Origin: Meiothermus sp. Pnk-1 | GTDB lineage: Bacteria > Deinococcota > Deinococci > Deinococcales > Thermaceae | Direction of reading: 5' to 3' | DNA: 64,000 bases | Assembly (NCBI RefSeq): GCF_003226535.1 | Contig: NZ_QKOB01000002.1 | Location: 310,001-374,000, forward strand | In this document: in pieces, positions 33,439-54,111 of the stretch | Position numbering within the stretch: position 1 is the first letter of the stretch | How the letters are laid out: every line of letters begins with the position of its first letter | Program-made: the position numbers and the translations under genes | Notes under the pieces: model-generated | What the model was told of the DNA's origin: nothing | Database searches by the model: none | What the model saw: only the letters and a program-made list of their open reading frames with translations

Positions 33439-33453
33439 CCAAACGTCGAAGGC

Positions 33454-33496
33454 TAAACGCCGAACGCCCGAAGACTTCCAGAGCGTTTGGCGTTTA
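33454..33496 (+). terminator. Hairpin after gfh1 (terminator-like, heptad-repeat sequence)
   Basis: TAAACGCCGAACGC (33454-33467) and GCGTTTGGCGTTTA (33483-33496) pair at 13 of 14 positions; TTCTT follows. The arms are made of the same 7-bp units (GCGTTTG, GCGTTTA) as the dispersed repeats, so it may be a repeat fragment used as a terminator. It sits right before the lysS ribosome-binding sequence. Confidence 0.55.
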
Positions 33497-37200: not shown

Positions 37201-37303
37201 AGGGATTTATTATTCCGCATCGAAGCGCCGGGCTTGGGAGTTGGGAGACATTTACACGTTTCGCCGCACAGCGGTGCCCGGGCGCGCGGATGCCAGGAGT
37301 GCG

Positions 37304-37517
37304 TCCTACGTTGAACGTCATACGTCGTACGAAGGGGATCGTCCCCTAGGTGTACAGCCATAGGCTGTCCCGAGACGCCACCCCACGGCTTACGCCGAAA
37401 CAAGCGTCTCACTTCGCTCGGCGAAAGAAGCGTCAAAAAACCCCCGCGTTTAGCGTCTGGCGTTTTGCGTATGGCGTACGACGTACGACGCAAGTTGCGT
37501 TTCGCGTACGACGAGAG
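37304..37517. repeat. Heptad/stem-loop repeat element B
   Basis: The left arm has four phased 7-bp units (TCCTACG, TTGAACG, TCATACG, TCGTACG; 37304-37331). One stem-loop unit follows, whose ACAGCC (37354-37359) and GGCTGT (37363-37368) enclose a three-base loop. The right arm has seven phased units from GCGTTTA at 37446 to ACGCAAG at 37494 and three more after a two-base slip. The 37374-37445 middle has a TTCGC/GCGAA hairpin and two AAGCGTC copies. It fills most of the gene-free stretch 37201-37550; I see no gene there. Confidence 0.75.
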
Positions 37518-38626: not shown

Positions 38627-39076
38627 ATGGGGGACGAGCTGTTACACCAGGCCCTGCGGCTGCTGGCGGCGAAGGACTATACCGAAGCGGGGCTGCGGCG
38701 CAAGCTCGCCCGTCGGGGTTCGCCCGAAGAGGTGGAGGCGGCGGTTCGCCGGGTCAAGGAACTCGGTTACCTGGACGACCGCAGATACGCCGAGAGCTAC
38801 CTCCGGCTCAACCAAGGTCGCTGGGGGATGAACAAATTGCGCCAGGCGTTGCGGTCCAGAGGAGTTTCCGTAGAGGTGATCCGGGGGGTGCTGGCTGACC
38901 TCGAGTCCGAAGCCGATCCGGTAGCCGAGGCCCTCCGGTTGCTCGAGCGTTACCCCAGCCGCTATAAGGGTGAAAAGGCCAAGGCCATCCGCTTCTTGCT
39001 CAACCGGGGATTCCCGCTTTCGGCGGCTTTGGCGGCTTGGGAGAGGTATAGCCAAACGCCGAACCCCGAACGCTAG
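38627..39076 (+). CDS. recX: Regulatory protein RecX
   Basis: A 149-aa protein built from three-helix repeats that binds RecA filaments and limits recombinase activity. The family signature is the first repeat ALRLLAAKDYTEAGLRRKLARRG (residues 7-29) and VKELGYLDDRRYAESYL near 46-62, then SRGVSVEVIRGVL. It is slightly short but complete. It is not next to recA in this window. Confidence 0.9.
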   Translation: MGDELLHQALRLLAAKDYTEAGLRRKLARRGSPEEVEAAVRRVKELGYLDDRRYAESYLRLNQGRWGMNKLRQALRSRGVSVEVIRGVLADLESEADPVAEALRLLERYPSRYKGEKAKAIRFLLNRGFPLSAALAAWERYSQTPNPER

Positions 39077-39110
39077 AGGTCTGGTAACTTGATTTGTGCT
39101 GACTCAGACG

Positions 39111-39355
39111 TCGTACGTCGAACGTCATACGTCATACGAAGGGGATCGGTCCCTCGGGTGTACGGGCGTAGCCCGTCCCGATAGGGGATCGTCCTCAGCG
39201 TTTAGCGTCTGGCGTTTTGCGTATTGCGTATGACGTACGACGTAGGACGTATACCAACCCCACCCTAGCCCTCCCCTGCTAGGGGAGGGAGCACCCCGCG
39301 TTTGGCGTAAGACGTACAACGTACGACGTATGACCTAAGTCGCGTCTTGCGTTAA
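39111..39355. repeat. Heptad/stem-loop repeat element C
   Basis: The left arm has four phased 7-bp units (TCGTACG, TCGAACG, TCATACG, TCATACG; 39111-39138). A stem-loop unit follows with ACGGGC (39162-39167) and GCCCGT (39171-39176). Eight phased units run from 39198 to 39253, then a perfect 9-bp hairpin with arms CCCTCCCCT (39269-39277) and AGGGGAGGG (39281-39289), then at least six more phased units from 39298. The array runs straight into the promoter of the next gene. The whole 39077-39365 gap is occupied by it. Confidence 0.8.
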
Positions 39356-47664: not shown

Positions 47665-47880
47665 GGTAGATTCCCTTCGGGACAGCCTACGGCTGTACAC
47701 CCAGAGGTAGATTCCCCGGCGGGACGGCCTACACCCGTACGACCCCACCCCAACCCTCCCCTGCTAGGGGAGGGGGTATTAGCTTTCCTGGCTCCCGGCC
47801 TGGTCGGCTACGGTCAAGGCGAAGGGTACAGCATAAAGGGGTATGATCCCCTGCGTTTAGCGTACGACGTGCGTCATTCC
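47665..47880. repeat. Heptad/stem-loop repeat element D
   Basis: Two tandem stem-loop units: the first with ACAGCC (47682-47687) and GGCTGT (47691-47696); the second, around 47722-47737, with a decayed stem. Then the 9-bp hairpin CCCTCCCCT/AGGGGAGGG (47754-47774), a non-repeat spacer, and phased 7-bp units GCGTTTA, GCGTACG, ACGTGCG, TCATTCC (47853-47880). It occupies most of the gene-free stretch 47559-47903 and ends 10 bases before the globin promoter box. Confidence 0.75.
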
Positions 47881-49354: not shown

Positions 49355-49451
49355 TATACGCTGTACGTCGTACGCTAAACGCAAGACGCAAAACGCTGGG
49401 GACGAGCAAAGCTCGTACACCTATTCGTATTCGTATGACGTACGACATGGG
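49355..49451. repeat. Heptad/stem-loop repeat element E
   Basis: Six phased 7-bp units (TATACGC, TGTACGT, CGTACGC, TAAACGC, AAGACGC, AAAACGC; 49355-49396), one stem-loop unit with ACGAGC (49402-49407) and GCTCGT (49411-49416) around AAA, then units TTCGTAT, TCGTATG, ACGTACG. It is the smallest complete copy and separates convergent genes. Confidence 0.75.
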
Positions 49452-53871: not shown

Positions 53872-54111
53872 CCCCAGCAGGGGAGGGGGTATACGTCGTA
53901 CGCAATACGCAAAACGCCAGACGCAAAAAAGGGACGATCCCCTACGGGACGGGCTACGCCCGTACACCCGGGGTAGATTCCCTATCGGGACCGGCGGAGC
54001 CGGTACACCTAGGGGACGATCCCCTATCGGGACGGAGCAAGCTCCGTACACCTAGGGGACCGATCCCCTTCGTATGACGTATGACGCACGACGTTTGCCA
54101 TAAGACGTACT
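53872..54111. repeat. Heptad/stem-loop repeat element F with three tandem units
   Basis: A degenerate half of the GGGGAGGG hairpin, then phased 7-bp units (ATACGTC, GTACGCA, ATACGCA, AAACGCC, AGACGCA; 53891-53925). Three stem-loop units with a period of 41-42 bases follow: stems ACGGGC/GCCCGT (53949-53963), ACCGGC/GCCGGT (53990-54004) and ACGGAGC/GCTCCGT (54032-54047). A half unit and six phased units (54070-54111) close it. Each of the three stems differs, yet every one is fully complementary. It occupies most of the gene-free stretch 53778-54159. Confidence 0.82.

Follow-up and report, generated by a model that had tools for sequence, protein, structure and literature searches.

Ordered heptamer arrays beside hairpin modules between the genes of Meiothermus sp. 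Pnk-1

Degenerate heptamer arrays lying between genes have been described in the hundreds in Xanthomonas, with the unit GGGANTN, and in Nostoc, with the unit GGGGAYT (PMC4692102). As that paper reports for Xanthomonas, 89-93% of the arrays are intergenic, they lie nearer the end of the upstream gene, and convergent inverted pairs occur in 70 and 75 cases. The excess of heptamers in bacteria was reported in 2007; it has no settled cause, and the same paper passes on the suggestion that it reflects the DNA segment held by the polymerase (PMC4692102). Direct repeats of TAACTGA, known from Beggiatoaceae, some cyanobacteria and Bacteroidetes, are described as one fixed heptamer, found for the most part immediately in front of start codons, and heptamers related to it are rare (PMC4679880). 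The REP and BIME sequences of the GTAG and CGTC superfamilies are a third relative, treated in a paper whose main text does not mention Meiothermus, Thermus or Deinococcus (PMC3733652).

The window analysed here is a stretch of 64,000 nucleotides from Meiothermus sp. Pnk-1, and the units of its arrays read RCGTNNN. Like the arrays of Xanthomonas and Nostoc, they keep a period of 7 with the leading positions conserved and the rest variable, and like those of Xanthomonas they mostly lie between genes, closer to the end of the upstream one, and are present as inverted pairs (PMC4692102). Unlike either, the units in the window have no GGG tract and hence no quadruplex-type G-tracts, a conserved hairpin core separates the arms, copies agree in unit order, and in Calidithermus the unit classes stand in ordered succession. 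They resemble the TAACTGA repeats in being intergenic heptamer arrays dispersed both within one genome and among distant phyla (PMC4679880), but have degenerate units and a position closer to the ends of genes. The likeness to REP/BIME consists of dispersed intergenic hairpins, stem variants, mosaics and a position mostly downstream of genes (PMC3733652), whereas the tandem 42-bp modules and the heptad arms are peculiar to the present elements and no REP-type transposase was found in the genome. REP sequences have a GTAG or CGTC tag at the foot of a palindrome of 20-40 bp. By eye and without statistics, the stem of the present modules is seen to have ATCGTCC or ATCTACC (GTAG when read from the opposite strand) beside it; between 53931 and 54069 of the window these two forms alternate and recall the two REP tags. 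Miniature inverted-repeat transposable elements (MITEs) are short, palindromic and non-coding. The present elements are likewise short, palindromic, non-coding and apparently recently gained, but unlike MITEs they have no constant inverted ends or target duplications that could be seen by eye. A survey of titles and abstract openings returned no description of heptamer repeats in Thermaceae. We file the elements as degenerate heptamer arrays with a REP- or MITE-like carrier; membership in either of these two classes is not proven.

Anatomy and folding of the elements

The eight successive heptamers from which the original prediction started, GCGTTTA, GCGTCTG, GCGTTTT, GCGTATT, GCGTATG, ACGTACG, ACGTAGG and ACGTATA, stand exactly where it had placed them. 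Allowing at most one mismatch, the three-unit RCGTNNN pattern RCGTNNNRCGTNNNRCGT matches the window 55 times; 100 dinucleotide shuffles gave 1.44 matches on average and never more than 7. Exact four-unit RCGTNNN matches in the genome number 322 (194 + 128) and those of a reversed-pattern control 1 + 0. For the 150-bp stretch 39104-39253, BLAST lists 97 matches in this genome of 3.51 Mb. Beyond what had been predicted, the array has an opposite arm, an intervening hairpin core and a second array behind it (Table 1), so that the element runs from 39076 to 39332 as outer sequence, left arm, one-module core, right arm, second hairpin and second array. The outer left sequence occurs 13 times in the genome at no more than 3 mismatches, and 11 of these copies have heptad arms within ~25 bp. 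Rfam returned three tRNAs only in the window, phage records gave no match, plasmid matches were confined to the two plasmids of Allomeiothermus silvanus, and a first scan of genome contigs with a RecX-like protein (named by eye) gave no match.

Table 1. Heptad arrays, cores and adjoining sequences in the window (positions of the 64,000-nucleotide stretch)
Feature	Position	Strand	Remarks
First element, outer left sequence	39076..39104	+	ends TAACTTGATTTGTGCTGAC
First element, left heptad arm	39105..39138	-	ACGTNNN on minus strand; complementary to right arm
First element, core between arms	39139..39197	+	one hairpin module, stem GGGC/GCCC
First element, right heptad arm	39198..39253	+	8 units
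Second hairpin	39254..39297	+	CTCCCCTGCTAGGGGAG; between first and second array
Second heptad array	39298..39332	+	5 units: GCGTTTG, GCGTAAG, ACGTACA, ACGTACG, ACGTATG
Second element, left arm	37301..37328	+	
Second element, core	37329..37445	+	with further hairpin-like insert
Second element, right arm	37446..37487	+	6 units, ATT unit missing
Third (inverted) element, right arm	53890..53924	-	5 units, first unit missing
Third element, core	53925..54069	-	about three 42-bp hairpin modules in tandem
Third element, left arm	54070..54111	-	decayed
Heptad array	49355..49396	-	6 units; adjoins remnant hairpin module
Three-unit array	47853..47873	+	within insertion relative to A. silvanus; decayed core modules there
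Old array	33440..33467	-	in stretch common to A. silvanus

The core is built of modules of ~42 bp, 90 of which were found in 628 kb of this genome. Its hairpin has several stem sequences: eight stem-loop sequences occur at least 5 times, account for 69 of the 90 modules and each keep 5-6 bp, and among the 23 distinct stem-loop sequences listed a simple count has 3 that lose the stem and one with 2 bp. Runs of five or six A or T were noticed at joints between modules (C2:83356, C6:371213, C3:335704 and C2:106363, C2 being the window's contig). The RNA of the first element is predicted to fold at -84.2 kcal/mol (z -7.75), both arms forming one long stem, and its DNA at z -7.63, with 0 of 200 shuffles as good in either case; for the third element the predicted fold has z -6.33. 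Are the two arms of an element fitted to each other? When arms were exchanged between elements (28 rows, including two from one site that have a common left arm), own arms paired at -35.97 and swapped arms at -35.78 kcal/mol, and 0.397 of 5000 permutations reached the own value. Given that own arms pair no better than swapped ones, no arm co-evolution is shown, and the long stem may be a by-product of interchangeable units.

Unit order and the matching sites of A. silvanus

Core-anchored right arms were collected by pattern from contig C2, which was sampled completely, and from other stretches of the genome picked for element or array hits. They numbered 39; 3 were dropped on inspection as non-arms and 2 had fewer than 3 units, which left 34. 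At the same index the variable triplets are identical in 0.407 of comparisons, against a mean of 0.116 (sd 0.006, maximum 0.15) in 2000 within-arm permutations, so that unit order is indeed conserved between copies beyond expectation, as the original prediction had proposed. The first unit is GCGTTTA in 27 of the 34 arms, the second GCGTCTG in 20, the third GCGTTTT in 20 and the fourth GCGTATT in 18; the fifth and later units are varied. A second arm type opens with GCGTTTA GCGTAAG (5/34, counted at index 2), several arms are without single units, and some have insertions of 1 bp or of A/T runs. The arrays are also polar, running mostly from GCGT to ACGT: among 58 arrays of at least 4 units with both letters, the G-to-A direction is found in 47, the opposite one in 1 and a mixture in 10. 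Copies share unit order, presumably because the array travels inside a larger element.

The right arms of the second and third elements had been described beforehand as recurrences of the same ordered units. Their order is the same; the arrays themselves are not identical, the second reading TTA, CTG, TTT, ATG, ACG, ACG without ATT, and the inverted third CTG, TTT, ATT, ACG, ATA without TTA. It would be conceivable that each array grew locally as a plain microsatellite, by slippage, the shared order being coincidence or composition. Adjacent units do resemble each other most, the multiplicity of unit classes varies widely in Calidithermus chliarophilus, and heptamer arrays are reported to be over-represented in bacteria (PMC4692102); yet order is conserved far above within-arm permutation and the arms have fixed places beside homologous cores, and we regard this explanation as very improbable. 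As the sole cause in this genome slippage is already refuted by the conserved order, and it stays as a contributing process. The choice between copying and local slippage, which the original prediction had put as an either/or, is not supported as such, since whole units are lost or gained between copies and neighbouring units of C. chliarophilus are the most alike.

We compared the 66 heptad clusters in 628 kb of this genome with 1.2 Mb of A. silvanus. Fifteen have syntenic flanks, 3 lie inside continuous alignment, and 48 are without a comparable place in A. silvanus. Nine of the 15 with syntenic flanks are core elements, among them all three of the window (~37.3, ~39.1 and ~53.9 kb), and at 9/9 the A. 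silvanus site is without the element. Judged by this alignment of sequences, the comparison shows elements that are recent gains relative to A. silvanus. The short array at 33440-33467 is common to both species at the same place. The A. silvanus site that matches window positions 39079-39342 (C2:349k) holds another insertion, apparently an IS, with ends like CAGACTTGACCG, GCTAAAGG repeated on both sides. A lone GCGTTTR near the joint in A. silvanus was seen, without statistics, in three comparisons (C2:285k, 349k and 357k).

Given the shared order together with the nine empty sites out of nine, whole elements appear to have been gained and copied, and to this extent the earlier idea of whole-array copying stands. 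Our main reading, to which we assign a probability of about 0.6, is that these are mosaic, non-coding, palindromic intergenic elements that spread as wholes and whose arms are edited by slippage of 7 nt. An element consists of inverted arrays of 7-bp units with a single ~42-bp hairpin module or several between them, and in some cases a further hairpin and array come behind. New copies would come from copying or transposing the whole element, in the manner of a MITE or BIME, and the arrays would grow and shrink beside the hairpins in 7-nt steps, the period being kept while the letters drift; whole-unit changes and the similarity of neighbours point to such slippage. Compared by eye, the empty A. 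silvanus sites revealed no constant ends, terminal inverted repeats or target duplications, and therefore make no case for transposition. Likewise, the single Y1_Tnp match in the genome is a 138-aa ORF adjoining a TnpB-like ORF, IS200/IS605-like by eye, so that no obvious mobiliser is at hand.

Separable modules and a constant period of seven

By strict pattern, 67/68 core modules in the sample of this genome (28/29 on C2) lie within 300 bp of an RCGT array, and in the A. silvanus sample 0/13 do. Heptad-free core hairpin modules were seen there in apparently coding stretches (L197 13900-14200 and L190 8750-9100). Across the order, BLAST finds the core family in 20/111 genomes, all within three genera, and four-unit RCGT arrays are found in 28/111; in one genus (g3) many genomes have the core without arrays. 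The C. chliarophilus stretches contain no core module by strict pattern, and BLAST lists 8 matches in the whole genome of that species. Of its 45 oriented arrays, 25 are immediately preceded by a hairpin whose stem has 7 bp or more and 4 are followed by one; such a hairpin is present in 5.8% of random stretches. The RCGT count of 2216 for C. chliarophilus was discarded, the assembly having long N runs and the reversed-pattern control reaching 70 and 166. Because A. silvanus has the core without heptads and the heptads of Calidithermus adjoin other hairpins, the core and the arms can be separated as modules.

The period of seven, and not the RCGT motif, persists from genus to genus and, in the loci sampled, in other phyla. 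A motif-free scan of 324 kb of C. chliarophilus gave 61 self-similar tracts at lag 7, with 30 and 19 at lags 14 and 21; the remaining lags between 4 and 24 gave 0-3 tracts each, except 8 at lag 12, and 16/61 of the lag-7 tracts have no RCGT pair. Contig C2 has 15 tracts at lag 7 (15/15 RCGT) and at most 4 at any other lag, and 1.2 Mb of A. silvanus has 7 at lag 7 and up to 5 at others. In G011 and G053 no lag-7 tracts were found in 100 and 48 kb; G011 is nonetheless among the RCGT-matching genomes. Six-unit RCGT arrays occur in at least 119 stretches of a public genome collection, from many phyla, a good part of them plain repeats of a single heptamer. Once these arrays are masked, 785 kb remain, and tracts in them number 70 for lag 7, 13 for lag 6, 11 for lag 8 and no more than 8 for any other lag, a spectrum that speaks for motif independence and not for overall frequency, the loci having been picked for heptads. 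Among the matches listed, 38/119 public loci have lag-7 tracts after masking. For 51/209 lag-7 tracts in these loci an inverted counterpart lies no more than 150 bp away; trials at five random places gave 16. Very long degenerate arrays of GTGAT-type heptamers, ~41 units at most and several per contig, were noticed in Desulfococcaceae HSG8 (L108, L113 and L148).

The unit classes of C. chliarophilus have a preferred succession and variable multiplicity. In 53 arrays, oriented beforehand by motif, GCGTY precedes GCTAT in 22:5 cases, GCTAT precedes ACTAT/ACCAT in 13:1, and GCGTA precedes ACGT in 12:3. Identity between units is 0.808 for direct neighbours and declines as they lie further apart, reaching 0.42 at 12 units, which indicates that local, unit-wise change acts too.

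The omega protein of plasmid pSM19035 binds heptads. The arrays might similarly serve as operators, or as partition-like sites, recognised by a protein whose register is 7 bp, and the unspaced heptads, the four fixed positions, the direct and inverted arrays and the precedent of heptad parS sites (PMC9499535) would suit such a role. Omega/parS sites are marked by one fixed heptad motif and a cognate ribbon-helix-helix protein. A motif that changes here from genus to genus and from phylum to phylum, under an unchanged period of 7, disfavours a motif-specific binder. The sites here are moreover scattered genome-wide, and by inspection NNN is about as constant as RCGT in order-matched arms. We hold this role to be highly doubtful.

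The step of 7 nt could also be set by a mechanism and not by the sequence. A polymerase or repair process would slip by 7 nt behind a DNA or RNA hairpin and would so build polar, one-sided arrays beside unrelated hairpins in many phyla, GCGT-type units adjoining the hairpin and AC-type units lying distal, and pieces of hairpin plus array would then be copied. This proposal is quite unlikely to be correct in our estimate; if true, the sevens of intergenic DNA would record a constant of the replication machinery.

A reverse transcriptase as array maker was rejected: RVT_1 is found in 13/111 genomes, and in none of the present genome, A. silvanus and G025, all of which bear heptads. A DinB-type polymerase was likewise rejected, with no match in C. 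chliarophilus, G025 and G033, a weak one in the present genome and no consistent link either way. A strong DinB match is mostly missing from heptad-bearing genomes of this family, yet A. silvanus has one and several heptad-free g4 genomes are without.

Placement behind gene ends

Gene positions were taken from our own simple gene caller. In the sample of this genome 36 clusters lie between tandem genes, 16 between convergent and 8 between divergent ones, with 3 inside a gene and 3 at an edge, so that 60/63 non-edge clusters are outside genes. Convergent gaps are favoured over divergent ones when set against other gaps of at least 60 bp (odds ratio 3.6, Fisher p 0.0098). Between tandem genes 25/36 clusters are nearer the upstream gene's end (p 0.050, Wilcoxon), the median distances being 39 bp to that end and 79.5 to the following start. 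These signals are modest in this genome. In C. chliarophilus the median distance is 9 bp from the end of the upstream gene and 182 from the start of the next, with 20/25 nearer the end. The arrays thus lie mostly behind gene ends. In the tandem cases of C. chliarophilus the arrays point against the genes in 19/25 (p 0.015), an orientation that a simple hairpin-plus-tail terminator would not predict.

Is this placement a sign of function? The heptads between stop codon and hairpin may be transcript-end modules under selection, serving termination or mRNA stability. Proximity to the upstream gene's end, the adjoining hairpins, core stems that interchange yet keep pairing, and the like placement of Xanthomonas arrays (PMC4692102) are all consistent with it. 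Any insertion tolerated only between genes, however, would show equal placement, and the orthologous sites of the sister species are without the elements. On balance we think such selection unlikely. For the mosaic elements spread as wholes, which we prefer, function, if any, would lie at the transcript 3' end, in hairpin, termination or stability, and the elements would otherwise be neutral or selfish.

The transcription termination factor Rho makes contacts spaced ~7-8 nt apart. Rho sites were rejected as a candidate: by eye, AAGACGC and AAAACGC, the gene-strand units most frequent in Calidithermus, have no YC dinucleotide.

The arrays belong to a family with an anatomy: hairpin and heptad modules that can be separated, a polarity, and a series of empty sites relative to a sequenced sister species. 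In this one case order conservation and slippage can be distinguished. In the sampled stretches of C. chliarophilus there is about one array per 5 kb, and the question of why seven becomes directly testable in culturable thermophiles.
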